Source: an uncultured Methylobacter sp. (GTDB taxonomy: Bacteria > Pseudomonadota > Gammaproteobacteria > Methylococcales > Methylomonadaceae). From it: a DNA stretch of 46,562 nucleotides. Of the stretch, positions 122 to 37,572 are shown in pieces (within the stretch, counting starts at the first letter, position 1; every line of letters starts with the position of its first letter). The stretch spans positions 1 to 46,562 of the forward strand of contig CAILCX010000181.1 of assembly GCA_903832775.1 (NCBI GenBank), given 5' to 3'. The notes under the pieces are model-generated. The model was not told where the DNA came from and made no database searches. It worked only from the letters and a program-made list of their open reading frames with translations. The translations under genes were made by a program, and so were the position numbers.

Positions 122-865
122 ATGAGCGCATCTCAATCAGCTGTACGTTCACGCGCTGAAGCAGTTAAAGTTTCACGTACGTTCGACTGGCTAATTCTGT
201 TTACATTGTTCTTCGTTGTACTTGGCGGATATCACATTCACTATATGTTAACCGGTGGTGACTGGGACTTCTGGACTGACTGGAAAGATAGACGTCTATG
301 GGTAACCGTGGCTCCAATCGTTTCAATCACTTTCCCTGCTGCTGTTCAAGCGGTGTTATGGTACCGTTACCGTTTGCCTTTTGGTGCGGTAGTTTGTATC
401 TTAGGTCTTCTGTTAGGTGAGTGGATCAACAGATATTTGAATTTCTGGGGTTGGACTTATTTCCCAGTAAACTTCTGTTTTCCTTCAAACTTAATGCCAG
501 GAGCTATTGTTCTTGATGTTATTTTATTGTTGTCAGGTAGTATGACTGTAACAGCAGTACTTGGTGGTTTGGCATATGGTTTGCTTTTCTACCCAGGAAA
601 CTGGCCAATTATGGCTCCATTACATGTACCTGTAGAATACAATGGCATGATGATGACACTTGCTGATTTACAAGGTTACCACTACGTAAGAACTGGTACA
701 CCTGAGTACATCAGAATGGTTGAAAAAGGTACATTGAGAACTTTCGGTAAAGACGTTGCTCCAGTATCAGCGTTCTTCTCTGGTTTCGTGAGTATTTTGA
801 TTTACTTCTTGTGGCATTTCTTCGGTAAATGGTTCGGTGGTACTTCATTCACACAAAGCACTTAA
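122..865 (+). CDS. pmoA: Particulate methane monooxygenase subunit A (PmoA)
   Basis: Encodes the 247-residue membrane subunit of particulate methane monooxygenase, which oxidises methane to methanol in the (intracytoplasmic) membrane together with PmoB and PmoC. Length equals that of known gammaproteobacterial PmoA. The protein is almost all hydrophobic helices and carries the family landmark GGDWDFW near residue 45 (the site used for pmoA PCR surveys) and GKDVAPVSAF near residue 209. The start is fixed by a near-perfect Shine-Dalgarno, AGGAGGT at 109-115, six bases before ATG. Codons such as TTC, TAC and GAC are frequent, as expected for a very highly expressed gene in an AT-rich genome. pmoB follows after 117 bases. 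The ammonia monooxygenase homologue AmoA is the only realistic alternative, and the serine-cycle genes in the window argue for a methanotroph. Confidence 0.98.
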   Translation: MSASQSAVRSRAEAVKVSRTFDWLILFTLFFVVLGGYHIHYMLTGGDWDFWTDWKDRRLWVTVAPIVSITFPAAVQAVLWYRYRLPFGAVVCILGLLLGEWINRYLNFWGWTYFPVNFCFPSNLMPGAIVLDVILLLSGSMTVTAVLGGLAYGLLFYPGNWPIMAPLHVPVEYNGMMMTLADLQGYHYVRTGTPEYIRMVEKGTLRTFGKDVAPVSAFFSGFVSILIYFLWHFFGKWFGGTSFTQST

Positions 866-982: not shown

Positions 983-2227
983 ATGAAATTAATAAAAGAC
1001 AAGGTTGCTAAATTATCCTTTGTCGCACTGCTGGTAACTGTTACAGCAGCGATGTTTTACGCACCAACTGCATCTGCACATGGTGAAAAGTCGCAAGCAG
1101 CTTTCATGCGTATGCGTACTATTCACTGGTTTGACCTGAACTGGTCAAAAGATACAGTGCCTGTTAACGACACAATGACAATTTCTGGTAAATTCCACGT
1201 TTTCGCTGGATGGCCTGAAACTGTTGATAAGCCAGAAATTTCATTTTTGAACATCGGTATTCCAGGACCAGTATTTATACGTCAAGGTTCTTGGATCGGT
1301 GGTCAATTAGTTCCACGTTCAGTAACATTGGAGCTGGGTGAAACTTATGAGTTTAAAGTATTGTTGAAAGCGCGTCGCCCAGGTGACTGGCACGTACATA
1401 CAATGATGAACGTAAAAGGTGGTGGTCCAATCATCGGTCCTGGTAAATGGGTAACTGTTACTGGATCTATGGCTTCATTCACTAACCCTGTTACTACATT
1501 GTTGGGTGATACCATCAACTTGGAAACTTACAACCTTAGCAATACTTACTTCTGGCATGCTTTCTGGTATGCTCTAGGTTTGGCTTGGTTGGCATATTGG
1601 GCTCGTAAGCCAATGTTTGTTCCACGTCACCTTGCTGTTGAAGCTGGTAAAGCTGATACCTTGGTATCTGCTACTGATAGAAAAGTTGCTATGGGTTTTG
1701 CAGCTGGTACTATGGCGATTGTTGCTTTCGGTATGAGTAGCACAAACGCAGCATATCCAGTAACAACTCCTTTGCAAGCTGGTTTATTACGTGGTATGAA
1801 GCCAATTGAAATGCCTGCAAGAACTGTTAGCGTTAAAGTTGAAGATGCAACTTACCGTGTGCCAGGTCGTGCCATGCAAATGACTCTGACTATCACTAAC
1901 AATGGTGATTCTTCAGTACGTTTGGGTGAGTTTAATACTGCTGGTGTTCGTTTCTTAGATCCTAAAGTTCATGAAGATGAAACTGGTTACCCAGATGACT
2001 TGTTGGCTGAAGAAGGTTTGACTGTTAGCGATAACAGCCCACTTGCTCCAGGTCAATCAAGAACTGTTCAAGTAACTGCTTCTGACGCTGCTTGGGAAGT
2101 TTACCGTTTAGCTGACTTGATCTATGATCCAGACAGTCGTTTTGCTGGTTTGTTGTTCTTCTTTGATGAAGCTGGCAAACGTCAAATGGTAATGATAGAC
2201 GCTCCATTAATTCCATCTTTCATCTAA
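983..2227 (+). CDS. pmoB: Particulate methane monooxygenase subunit B (PmoB)
   Basis: Encodes the 414-residue copper-binding periplasmic subunit of particulate methane monooxygenase. Residues 1-32 are a signal peptide ending in ASA, so the mature protein starts at His33, the N-terminal copper ligand of the family. The partners H137 and H139 are present in the motif WHVHTMM, and H48 and H72, the bis-His site of the Methylococcus capsulatus enzyme, are also there. Order: N-terminal cupredoxin domain (about 33-170), two transmembrane helices (about 185-265), C-terminal cupredoxin domain (about 265-414). The start has a strong Shine-Dalgarno, GAGGAGG at 972-978. It is the last gene of the operon and is followed by a good terminator. 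Length matches the family and all key residues are intact. Confidence 0.98.
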   Translation: MKLIKDKVAKLSFVALLVTVTAAMFYAPTASAHGEKSQAAFMRMRTIHWFDLNWSKDTVPVNDTMTISGKFHVFAGWPETVDKPEISFLNIGIPGPVFIRQGSWIGGQLVPRSVTLELGETYEFKVLLKARRPGDWHVHTMMNVKGGGPIIGPGKWVTVTGSMASFTNPVTTLLGDTINLETYNLSNTYFWHAFWYALGLAWLAYWARKPMFVPRHLAVEAGKADTLVSATDRKVAMGFAAGTMAIVAFGMSSTNAAYPVTTPLQAGLLRGMKPIEMPARTVSVKVEDATYRVPGRAMQMTLTITNNGDSSVRLGEFNTAGVRFLDPKVHEDETGYPDDLLAEEGLTVSDNSPLAPGQSRTVQVTASDAAWEVYRLADLIYDPDSRFAGLLFFFDEAGKRQMVMIDAPLIPSFI

Positions 2228-34333: not shown

Positions 34334-34765
34334 TTACTTGTCAGAGGTTTCTTTAAAGCTTTGTTTTATGCTTTGAAACATCACGCTGATATCGCCAAAT
34401 AAATTGTTGACCGAAATCGCTTCTTTAGTAATAAATTTTATTCTGATCAGTGCAGCCGCTAAAACGCCTACAATAGAAGGCATTAACTCTAGGTAAAGTG
34501 ATAACATTACGCCGCCAAAACCTTGAAAGCCGCCTTCATTTTTCCTATCACCGATAGTTGTTAAATCGCGCTCGTAGTCACCACCGCCTTCGCTACTTTT
34601 GATCGACTCTAAAATATACAGATTGATATCAATAAATCCTAACTGCACTACAAAAAATGCAACTACACAAATTGCTACCCACATCATTACGTTACTTGTT
34701 TTCGCTCTCATAGCTGACTGGTAAATCCAGAGAGCTACAAAAATCATTATAATGCCACCTATCAT
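34334..34765 (-). CDS. Hypothetical membrane protein (143 residues)
   Basis: Not recognised. Hydrophobic segments at about 2-15, 25-55 (VMMWVAICVVAFFVVQLGF) and 85-105 (LSLYLELMPSIVGVLAAAL) suggest three or more membrane spans. A polar Gly/Glu/Asp-rich loop (about 60-82) and a soluble C-terminus follow. Shine-Dalgarno AAGGA lies about 8 bases before the ATG. It is 22 bases downstream of the secreted protein gene on the same strand, so the two are probably cotranscribed and end at the bidirectional terminator. Confidence 0.65.
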   Translation of the reverse strand: MIGGIIMIFVALWIYQSAMRAKTSNVMMWVAICVVAFFVVQLGFIDINLYILESIKSSEGGGDYERDLTTIGDRKNEGGFQGFGGVMLSLYLELMPSIVGVLAAALIRIKFITKEAISVNNLFGDISVMFQSIKQSFKETSDK

Positions 34766-34787: not shown

Positions 34788-35177
34788 TTATATTTTGGTT
34801 AGAAAAAAGTAAAGATACGCGCACTTTAAAGTCATTTTAGAACCCTCTTTTTCAACTACTTTACAGGATTCATATTTTTCTCGTCCAGGAGTTGTTTGTT
34901 TATGGATCTCTCCATTCTCGACAAAATATTTAATGGCTATCTTCATCTCTTTTGTTCGACCTACAGAATCTGTCGCTGTTGTTTGTAAAGCACCGTCTGC
35001 TTTAAATTCCCATTCAACCTTAACTGCTTTTTGCTCTCCATCCAATTTAGCTGCTTCAGCATATAAATTCCATTTCCCCAGGATTTCAGCGTTATCTTTT
35101 AATGTAACCTCAGCATTTGCTGAAAACGCAAAAAATAGCGCAGAGAACGATAATATTTTAACGCATTTATTCATCAT
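34788..35177 (-). CDS. Hypothetical secreted protein, lipocalin-like
   Basis: Encodes 129 residues with a clear signal peptide (about 1-22, FSALFFAFSANA). The mature part has the pattern of a small beta-barrel: ILGKWNLYAEA near the start (the lipocalin-type GKW) and alternating strands with WEFKADGALQTTATD. Two cysteines, ESCKVV and LKCAYL, could pair. Family placement is by resemblance only. Two adjacent ATGs are possible starts; AAGGA upstream suits both. Lies upstream of the membrane protein gene at 34334-34765. Confidence 0.65.
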   Translation of the reverse strand: MMNKCVKILSFSALFFAFSANAEVTLKDNAEILGKWNLYAEAAKLDGEQKAVKVEWEFKADGALQTTATDSVGRTKEMKIAIKYFVENGEIHKQTTPGREKYESCKVVEKEGSKMTLKCAYLYFFLTKI

Positions 35178-35307: not shown

Positions 35308-35335
35308 TTGACTTTAACTTTTGCTAAAGTATTAT
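35308..35335 (+). promoter_or_regulatory. Sigma-70-type promoter of the 43-residue microprotein gene
   Basis: TTGACT (35308-35313) and TATTAT (35330-35335) are separated by 16 bases, a strong match. The spacer is bounded by an inverted repeat, ACTTTA (35311-35316) and TAAAGT (35325-35330), which could be an operator. The predicted start near 35342 leaves a leader of about 60 bases. Confidence 0.65.
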
Positions 35336-35401
35336 GCTCTTTCCTTTTGCTATGTAATTAGCATTATTTCTAAAAACACAAAATTATAGGTAGGACATCC
35401 C

Positions 35402-35533
35402 ATGGGAGCGATCTTAGATATCACCGAAATGTTAAAAGAACCAGCTGGTATGGTCGGCGCGGTTGTTGTTATAGCTGCTGGCTACTTCCTTGTAAAATGG
35501 GTATTCGCTGAACACCCAGACGACGAAAAATAA
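35402..35533 (+). CDS. Single-pass membrane microprotein (43 residues), probably highly expressed
   Basis: A 43-residue reading frame, MGAILDITEMLKEP to HPDDEK, with one membrane helix, GMVGAVVVIAAGYFLVKWVF, a short amphipathic N-terminal segment and an acidic C-terminus. It is supported by a good promoter, AGGA six bases before ATG, and its own terminator. Its codons are C-ending where it counts (both Phe TTC, Tyr TAC, His CAC, two of three Asp GAC, two of three Ile ATC), like pmoA and unlike the small gene at 28264, which suggests abundant expression. I recognise no family. A structural or assembly role as a small helix in a larger membrane complex is a guess. Confidence 0.75.
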   Translation: MGAILDITEMLKEPAGMVGAVVVIAAGYFLVKWVFAEHPDDEK

Positions 35534-35559: not shown

Positions 35560-35604
35560 AGGCCGTCCATTTCAATTTTTTAATTGAGTGCGGCCTTTGT
35601 TTTG
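35560..35604 (+). terminator. Terminator of the microprotein gene
   Basis: AGGCCG (35560-35565) pairs with CGGCCT (35591-35596), with an inner CAATT/AATTG stem, and is followed by TTGTTTTG. It starts 27 bases after the microprotein stop. Confidence 0.75.
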
Positions 35605-35679: not shown

Positions 35680-37572
35680 ATGTATAAACAATTCTCCGCT
35701 AAACTTCTCGCACTCAGATCAAACCAAGTTCCAGCTACAGGCATAGGTTTTTTTAGGTTTTTTTATGGCCTAGTTACCTTGCAGGAAATTATATTTTTAT
35801 TGTATTTCAATCACTTGATATTCGATCCTATGCCTTACATAGATGTTGAATTTCCTATGATTCCTTTCTTTCTATGTGTTTGGGGCGTTATTGCCAGCTT
35901 TGTTGTTGTTGGTTATCGTTACCAGTTTGCAATAACTTGTAATTATATTTTCTGGATTATTTTCGTTAACTTCACGCCAATGCAGCGAGATTTTGATGGT
36001 GGCTTCGATTTATTCATGATTGGGGCAGGATTCTTTCTACTTTTTATGCCGGGAAATCGAGCTTTTTCAATAGATAATTTAAGAAATAAGCTGAGTACAC
36101 CCTTTATTCATTACAGTACTTACTCAAAGCCAACAGTCTCGGTTCTTGCCTATTATTTGCCTGTTGCAATTTGCCTGGGTTTTCTTTACTTCGACTCATC
36201 GATACATAAGATGTTTGCAGAGCATTGGCGCAATGGTCTTGGCACTTGGTTGCCTGCAACACAGCCGTATTATGTTTCAGCGATAGACATGTCAGATCTA
36301 CTGAACAATAAACTTCTCCAAAACATCTTGGGTTACACAATTTTGGTGTTTCAATTCACCTTTATTTTCTTTTTTGCACAGAAAAGGTTGCGTGTATTCT
36401 ATTTATTGATTGGCTTAGGACTGCATCTTGGTATTACGCTGTCGTTTAATATTTATCCTTTCGGTTTGGGAATGCTTATTTTTTATACCTTAATGGTTCC
36501 TTTTAGCTGGTGGGAATATATGGGGCGATGTATTTCAGCAAAACATCCTTCTCTTACCGTGTTTTATGACCAGCTATGCCCATTATGTAACCGTACCGTG
36601 ATGATCCTTAATCATTTCGATATATTTAATTGTATTGACTTCAAAAGCGCTCAGGATCACTCTGCTTATTATCCTGCGCTAGTAAATATCTCTAAAGAAA
36701 CTTTGCTTACAGACTTGTATGCATTGGATAGCAACAACACCATTTATGCAGGCGTCGCCACCTATATCCAAATCTTTTTAAAAATGCGTTATTTATCACC
36801 TGTCGGCGTTTTTTTGAGCCTTCCGGGTGTACATCAGTTCGCCTTAAGAAAATATCGGTCTATTGCGGATAACCGAAACCGTATTCAATGTACATCGACT
36901 TGTGTAACAACAAAGGAACTAACCGATAACACTCTCTATCATTATTTTTTTGAAAAAACTGCAGTTCAGAAACCCAAGGCTTTTTCCAGGAAGCTTTTAA
37001 AGATATTGCTTGCGCTACTGTTTTTACAATTAAACAGCTCCATTCATTATGGTCTTATTTACAGGCTACATGCAGATCGTCCCCAGAGTCCTATATCGCA
37101 GATCAGTAACGCTATTTTAATGGTCTCGCAGACCTTTCTGGGCATTACCCCGCATGCGCTATATCTACATGATCATTTCGCCGGCTATGACCATATTTTA
37201 GCGCTAACTTATACTGACGAGAGTGGAGTGGAGCGGTGGCTACCTTTTGTTAATGAGCAAGGGCGTCTTCTAGCTCCTAATTGGGGTCGAGTTCATTCCA
37301 TGTGGGCCAATATTGCTGTTACACCAACTATTAATAATCAACGTTTGTATAAATTCATTATGAAAGTCACCGCTTTCTGGGGCCAGAAAATTGGCTTGAA
37401 TCTTGATCAGGTTGTTTTTAACATTAAACTGAAGAAAATAGATGCACCTACGTACTGGGTTCATGATCAATTACACAAGAATTTAACATCTCCATGGATT
37501 ACTATCGGAACTGCTAAATGGAGCAATAAACAAATATCTATTCATTTGCCGAACAACATCAATGATCTTTAA
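35680..37572 (+). CDS. HTTM-domain membrane protein fused to a DCC (DUF393) thiol oxidoreductase domain
   Basis: Encodes 630 residues. The N-terminal 280 residues hold several membrane helices in the pattern of the HTTM domain (related to vitamin-K-dependent gamma-glutamyl carboxylase), with FFRFFYGLVTLQEI at the start and SSIHKMF near residue 170. A DCC/DUF393 domain follows (about 290-410) with the redox motif FYDQLCPLCNR (C300 and C303). The last 190 residues include one more helix (about 440-460) and a soluble domain I cannot name. The reaction is unknown; the two domains together suggest thiol chemistry at the membrane. The microprotein gene upstream has its own terminator, so this gene probably has its own promoter. 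Confidence 0.82.
   Translation: MYKQFSAKLLALRSNQVPATGIGFFRFFYGLVTLQEIIFLLYFNHLIFDPMPYIDVEFPMIPFFLCVWGVIASFVVVGYRYQFAITCNYIFWIIFVNFTPMQRDFDGGFDLFMIGAGFFLLFMPGNRAFSIDNLRNKLSTPFIHYSTYSKPTVSVLAYYLPVAICLGFLYFDSSIHKMFAEHWRNGLGTWLPATQPYYVSAIDMSDLLNNKLLQNILGYTILVFQFTFIFFFAQKRLRVFYLLIGLGLHLGITLSFNIYPFGLGMLIFYTLMVPFSWWEYMGRCISAKHPSLTVFYDQLCPLCNRTVMILNHFDIFNCIDFKSAQDHSAYYPALVNISKETLLTDLYALDSNNTIYAGVATYIQIFLKMRYLSPVGVFLSLPGVHQFALRKYRSIADNRNRIQCTSTCVTTKELTDNTLYHYFFEKTAVQKPKAFSRKLLKILLALLFLQLNSSIHYGLIYRLHADRPQSPISQISNAILMVSQTFLGITPHALYLHDHFAGYDHILALTYTDESGVERWLPFVNEQGRLLAPNWGRVHSMWANIAVTPTINNQRLYKFIMKVTAFWGQKIGLNLDQVVFNIKLKKIDAPTYWVHDQLHKNLTSPWITIGTAKWSNKQISIHLPNNINDL

Follow-up and report, generated by a model that had tools for sequence, protein, structure and literature searches.

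What does a methanotroph do with a 43-residue membrane protein that is encoded by a gene of its own, away from any obvious operon? The question is raised by a short open reading frame on the forward strand (35402..35533) of the window, by which we mean the whole stretch of 46,562 nucleotides analysed here, from an uncultured Methylobacter species. The same window carries pmoA (122..865, forward strand; PF02461, with pMMO chains as its nearest PDB relatives) and pmoB (983..2227, forward strand; PF04744), and the original prediction had guessed that the small protein is linked to the methane monooxygenase that these genes encode. Oxidation of methane by this enzyme, the particulate methane monooxygenase (pMMO), is a major biological sink for the gas.

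A conserved microprotein with one membrane helix

The open reading frame encodes MGAILDITEMLKEPAGMVGAVVVIAAGYFLVKWVFAEHPDDEK, a predicted single-pass membrane protein in which an amphipathic helix (residues 3-12) is followed by Pro14, a membrane helix (14-35) and an acidic tail. AlphaFold2, run on the single chain, predicts the helices at 3-12 and 14-35 with a pLDDT of 84.8, and of 57 in the last block. Among 34 aligned gamma- and alphaproteobacterial members, which span 37-46 residues, M1, G2, I4, L5 and P14 never vary and G16 and W33 hardly do, so that the family core can be written MGAIL..P14.G16...(K/R)32-W33. Position 4 is V in the protein of the genus g453, MGAVLELVQMMFTPLGLVVTIACGAALFFFVRWVLTD, and I4 is therefore not invariant across the whole family. 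One helix with an acidic tail had been predicted. The single helix is supported, but the tail fails as a family trait: it is lineage-specific and the least conserved part of the protein, and the aligned alphaproteobacterial members stop at D37. No Cys or His is conserved among the aligned members. Consequently, neither copper binding nor electron transfer is proposed for the microprotein, and a copper-binding reading was dropped.

As predicted, the protein also has no counterpart in the family libraries searched. It passes no Pfam cut-off, the best weak matches being DUF6019 (14.1 against 23.6 bits) and SieB (12.1 against 26 bits), and NCBIfam yields no family at E values up to 1. PDB chains with known residues, many pMMO entries among them, yielded no match better than E 0.2 by sequence or by profile, and Foldseek returned a single match at E 8.5. 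A 2025 study has reportedly examined pMMO and AMO in native membranes and may already identify the microprotein. It is not named in the literature that we found, which consists of open-licence PubMed Central papers; naming elsewhere is possible. The available passages of a native mass spectrometry study of pMMO (PMC6572826) and of a transcriptome study of M. trichosporium (PMC3615186) mention no such protein.

The protein is under strong selection (pN/pS 0.03-0.09). Across 19 loci of the same genus, a set that leaves out two loci with divergent proteins (G005 and G016), 18 distinct coding sequences specify only 4 distinct proteins, with pS 0.252, pN 0.0070 and pN/pS 0.028. Including all 21 same-genus loci gives pS 0.308, pN 0.028 and pN/pS 0.091. 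On this comparative evidence, the gene is genuine and strongly conserved, and its predicted product is a single-helix protein.

A transcription unit of its own

Upstream of the gene lies a sigma-70-type promoter, TTGACT-16-TATTAT (35308..35335, forward strand; TTGACT at 35308-35313, TATTAT at 35330-35335). A consensus promoter scan of the window performed no better than chance (6 sites against a shuffle mean of 5.2), and the terminator did not appear in the scan output. Because the scan alone stood at chance level, conservation of the promoter was tested against control reading frames. The pattern used, picked after viewing the upstream sequences, was TTGAC, 15-18 bases and [TC]ANNNT within 110 upstream bases; it recurs in 71 of the 82 orthologous loci, to which each genome contributes one, compared with 7 of 520 other reading frames of at least 200 residues in 61 wide loci. 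The Shine-Dalgarno sequence AGGTAGGA (35388..35395, forward strand) ends in the AGGA (35392-35395) that had been noticed six bases before the ATG, and a site of the AGGTAGG type is found in 69 of the 82 loci and in 1 of the 520 controls. Downstream, a predicted intrinsic terminator (35560..35603, forward strand) combines a hairpin at 35560-35596 with a T-rich tail; the hairpin folds at -16.8 kcal/mol (z -4.47), and none of 200 shuffles is as good. Codon choice points the same way as the original prediction, which had likened it to that of pmoA. Scored towards pmoA and pmoB usage, the gene reaches a log2 value of 0.19 per codon, and none of 528 background segments, taken from 24 other genes of the window, scores as high. 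Training on pmoB only gives it 0.12, at the lower edge of the range of the pmoA segments (0.12-0.45). This pmo-like codon usage supports a prediction of strong expression.

The original prediction missed one further element. Near or just past the predicted transcript start (about 35342), the 5′ untranslated region contains a hairpin, TGCTA-N6-TAGCA (35348..35363, forward strand), whose sequence varies between genera while its pairing is kept. In 25 chosen sequences of family f1, from which the stem was itself chosen and to which the scope of the test is confined, 88.8% of cells are paired and 11 cells have changed on both sides. None of 500 shuffles reaches the paired share, the two-sided changes or the covariation score; the two measures based on numbers of pairs and of pair types are reached by 36 and 39 of the 500. 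Sliding one side of the stem by 1-3 columns drops pairing to 51% or less, and RNAalifold recovers four of the five pairs unaided. Folding energies are less uniform, with z -2.51 for the hairpin in the window (4 of 200 shuffles as good) and -0.13, -1.68 and -2.47 in three other loci. Hairpins at the 5′ end are usually read as lengthening the life of an mRNA, and this one may do so for the microprotein transcript. A TTGACA promoter-like site also lies upstream of pmoC in six loci (L032, L039, L082, L083, L089 and L090); a pmoC leader hairpin near the start could be folded in three of these, not above shuffles.

In family f1 the usual gene order is methionine synthase, two small genes, the microprotein and then a gene, c0, that in the window encodes a 630-residue protein with HTTM and DCC1-like parts (35680..37572, forward strand). 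The two small genes of the window lie on the reverse strand and encode conserved proteins of 143 residues (34334..34765; membrane-like by eye) and 129 residues (34788..35177; with a start resembling a secretion signal by eye), neither with a Pfam match; in many f1 loci they are divergent to the microprotein. Six gene clusters, named here by their window members, are common to at least 8 of the 61 wide loci: HTTM-DCC1, two without a Pfam match, methionine synthase, a glutaredoxin-like protein and UPF0114. The context is different in families f4, f6 and f36 and in the alphaproteobacteria, and we therefore regard the microprotein gene as a unit of its own. Its usual f1 neighbour, c0, was found in 14 of 21 chosen genomes and in none of three tested f7/f8 genomes, and is a second methanotroph-linked gene worth study.

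Distribution among methanotrophs

The original prediction would have fallen without conservation among relatives, and it clearly withstands this test. Within Methylococcales, the order of the window, the microprotein profile matches 268 of 311 genomes, spread over 44 of the 50 genera, mostly in single copy, and 207 of the 228 better genomes. The PmoC family is found in 271 of the same 311 genomes (214 of the 228). In a set of 101 relatives, 82 carry the microprotein and 87 carry PF02461; 75 have both, 7 the microprotein only, 12 PF02461 only and 7 neither, a co-occurrence with a Fisher p of 0.004 if kinship is ignored. The 12 genomes with PF02461 only fall in families f3, f7 and f8, and their best PF02461 scores are no higher than 382 bits, whereas genomes with both score about 397 bits or more, save one fragment (G016). 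Six of the 7 genomes with the microprotein only do have a PmoC match (a fragment at 1.5e-4 in G025), and one has none (G017); two of the seven, G025 and G075, are 100% complete.

Exceptions in the opposite direction, with PmoC present and the microprotein absent at a completeness of at least 90%, include G149, G262, G270 and G286 in family f1, and G110 (100% complete) and G134 (94%) in family f4. Six f1 exceptions reach a completeness of 90% or more. Four of them (G008, G149, G262 and G270) also lack c0, and in the other two (G174 and G286) the contig breaks off within c0, on the side on which the microprotein is expected. Assembly gaps are thus the likely, if unproved, cause of these f1 absences.

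Beyond the order, strong matches among 369 genomes of the class are confined to three Methylococcales and two members of another gammaproteobacterial family, f36: G338 (E 4e-14) and G483 (E 2e-12). Both of the latter have PmoA; the nearest chains to the G338 protein are those of pMMO, which we take to be of the M. capsulatus type. PF02461 occurs in 11 of the 369 genomes. Six of these have no microprotein, namely one f7 Methylococcales, four with divergent homologues (about 263-324 bits) and an ammonia oxidiser, G631. In this last genome, the sole ammonia oxidiser sampled (its AmoA scores 569 bits to an AMO chain), the microprotein was not found. Seven weak matches in the class (E 0.0015-0.009) were discarded, as about four are expected by chance and none of the seven genomes has PF02461.

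Across a sample of 219 genomes from the phylum, PF02461 appeared in one genome outside the class, G845, a Methylocystis. A profile that contained no alphaproteobacterial sequence then found the microprotein in 39 of 39 Methylocystis genomes at E values up to 0.1, strongly in 38; the remaining one (G901, 64% complete) has only a weak, paralogue-type match. In the Methylocystis family the microprotein is present in 12 of 147 genomes, which belong to 3 of the 43 genera (in the genera that lack it, PF02461 was looked for in the single genomes of the phylum sample): Methylocystis, Methylosinus (five genomes, with M. trichosporium OB3b among the carriers) and g453. A third pMMO-bearing genus of this family would presumably be Methylocapsa.

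Some alphaproteobacterial copies are on plasmids. In M. parvus OBBP, the copy on plasmid pMpar-2 sits in a gap of the distributed annotation, a table that is incomplete by its own description, and one Methylocystis copy matches three Methylocystis plasmid records. P0001 has no relatives in plasmids, and viral contigs and phage records hold no confirmed relatives. A phage or plasmid origin was set aside on these two grounds, although the Methylocystis plasmid copies exist. Extra copies occur in seven Methylocystis loci (L219, L221, L224, L225, L231, L232 and L235). Those of L219 and L235 are on contigs matching named plasmids, and one copy in L224 lies about 3-4 kb from pmoC in a locus with no pmoA or pmoB match. 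Methylocystis also has a second type of microprotein, MCDGEGLGLIQMAMTPxG...RWV (L228:9963-10082, L217:9969-10088, L226:9937-10098, L222:9896-10012 and L233:9910-10041), whose neighbour in each of the five loci is a gene of one and the same cluster, in L228 a MerR-type regulator; in three loci MerT- and MerP-cluster genes also stand beside it. The TPxG and RWV parts recall the present family, a likeness that does not imply shared descent.

Linkage to the pmo genes is occasional. The microprotein lies outside the pmo operon in all 61 wide loci and near it in six; in the window, 35 kb separate it from pmoA. Among the 75 genomes with both genes, eight have the microprotein within 10 kb of pmoA (4.4-8.7 kb), where roughly 0.5 would be expected, an estimate that assumes random placement and 1.3 operons in 3.7 Mb. 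The linked cases belong to two families, one of them being in f2 (G068), and because of kinship they represent fewer than eight independent events. In all six linked loci that were drawn, the microprotein converges on pmo.

A putative partner of pMMO

A protein that is nearly universal in the sampled pMMO-bearing proteobacterial groups, rare elsewhere, sometimes linked to pmo and equipped with signals for strong expression is best interpreted as a dedicated partner of pMMO. We suggest that, on balance, the microprotein is probably a dedicated accessory (supernumerary) subunit of pMMO, or a factor in its assembly or stability, in proteobacterial methanotrophs. Its distribution appears to be a good fit to that of pMMO in these bacteria, with exceptions both ways. 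The guess made at the outset has thereby gained independent support, from the occurrence in two classes and from the pmo linkage, and the overall reading is supported in part.

We infer the abundance, topology, pMMO contact and function of the microprotein along the following lines. The N-terminal amphipathic helix (MGAILDLTEML) would lie on the membrane surface, Pro14 would turn the chain into the one membrane helix (14-35), and Lys/Arg32-Trp33 would anchor this helix at the opposite interface. The conserved N-terminal face and Gly16 could then pack against a transmembrane pMMO subunit, PmoC or PmoA, where they would occupy a lipid-facing groove and thereby stabilise the pMMO trimer or its arrays.

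Several observations weigh against a pMMO subunit. The gene is outside the pmo operon and unlinked to it in most genomes, no PDB chain matches the protein despite the pMMO entries, PF02461 and the microprotein occur without each other in 12 and 7 of 101 relatives, and some PmoC genomes of at least 90% completeness (in f1 and f4) do not have it. The rival that deserves most attention is a protein that shapes or organises the intracytoplasmic membranes holding pMMO, sensing or stabilising their curvature without binding the enzyme. Methanotrophs of both classes form such membranes, and ammonia oxidisers do too; shared membrane biology could give the same two-class pattern, and an amphipathic helix followed by a membrane helix would suit the role. 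Nevertheless, the invariant G2-L5-P14 and the near-invariant I4, G16 and W33 look more like a protein-contact face than a lipid-sensing one, and the sole ammonia oxidiser sampled has no match, so that we rate this explanation as rather unlikely. A small subunit of some other membrane complex special to methanotrophs, such as one feeding electrons to pMMO or a terminal oxidase, would account for a gene that stands alone outside the pmo operon, and single-helix subunits are common in respiratory complexes. We consider it unlikely, as no known respiratory subunit is among the six clusters common to at least 8 of the 61 wide loci.

Further roles were considered. The microprotein might be a partner of the HTTM-DCC1 protein encoded next to it, an enzyme of membrane maturation or thiol-redox chemistry, in maturing methanotroph proteins: in most f1 loci c0 follows directly on the same strand, and both are missing from the three tested f7/f8 genomes. 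Yet the two genes are at least 120 kb apart on one contig in f4/f6 genomes (G063, G078, G093, G090, G070, G065 and G082), a terminator separates them in the window, and G064 has c0 and no microprotein, all of which makes such a partnership very improbable. A short hydrophobic reading frame upstream of a larger gene could also encode the hydrophobic toxin of a type I toxin-antitoxin system, or serve that larger gene as a leader peptide. Both ideas are barely credible for a gene that is mostly single copy, evolves at a pN/pS of 0.03-0.09, has its own terminator and sits in a context that is not conserved between families; they were rejected for these reasons.

Returning to the pMMO partner, a more specific version can be sketched. 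The crystal structure of pMMO from Methylocystis sp. Rockwell (PDB 4PHZ) contains an unassigned transmembrane helix (PMC8098663), and a map of pMMO in native membranes has densities that the model leaves unfitted (PMC9445010). The microprotein is a candidate for such an unassigned helix or density. It is possible, if somewhat doubtful, that it is the long-unassigned extra helix itself, a fourth pMMO subunit common to alpha- and gammaproteobacterial methanotrophs, which would have escaped notice because of the shortness of its gene (about 40 codons) and its position away from the pmo operon. If detergent removes it, this might then partly explain the low activity of the purified enzyme. The activity of pMMO falls 10- to 100-fold when it is isolated, and missing protein components have been proposed (PMC6189053). 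A pMMO-tracking protein of 37-46 residues offers a concrete sequence for existing maps, and its gene could be deleted, tagged or re-introduced in attempts at pMMO expression and reconstitution.

Known systems offer several comparisons. CydX and CcoQ are of similar size, have one membrane helix and are encoded by separate small reading frames that annotation often misses. Unlike them, the microprotein reaches no Pfam cut-off and has no NCBIfam match, and no respiratory gene is among its six shared neighbour clusters. PmoD/AmoD is a membrane protein that co-occurs with pMMO and is partly encoded away from the operon, in which it resembles the microprotein; it has a signal peptide, about 150-250 residues, a copper-binding domain, two conserved Cys and a C-terminal helix, and is also present in ammonia oxidisers (PMC6189053). 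The microprotein, in contrast, has 37-46 residues, no such domain and no conserved Cys. The helix of 4PHZ is likewise a single helix, and the pMMO comes from Methylocystis, a genus almost all of whose genomes carry the microprotein; no PDB chain sequence matches the microprotein family. The archaeal ammonia monooxygenase, also a copper enzyme of membranes, has AmoX, AmoY and AmoZ as additional subunits, which came to light through exclusive conservation, linkage and proteomics (PMC10030591). They are archaeal and backed by proteomics, whereas the microprotein is described here from comparative sequence analysis; the reasoning that would make it a subunit of pMMO resembles that which led to AmoX, AmoY and AmoZ.
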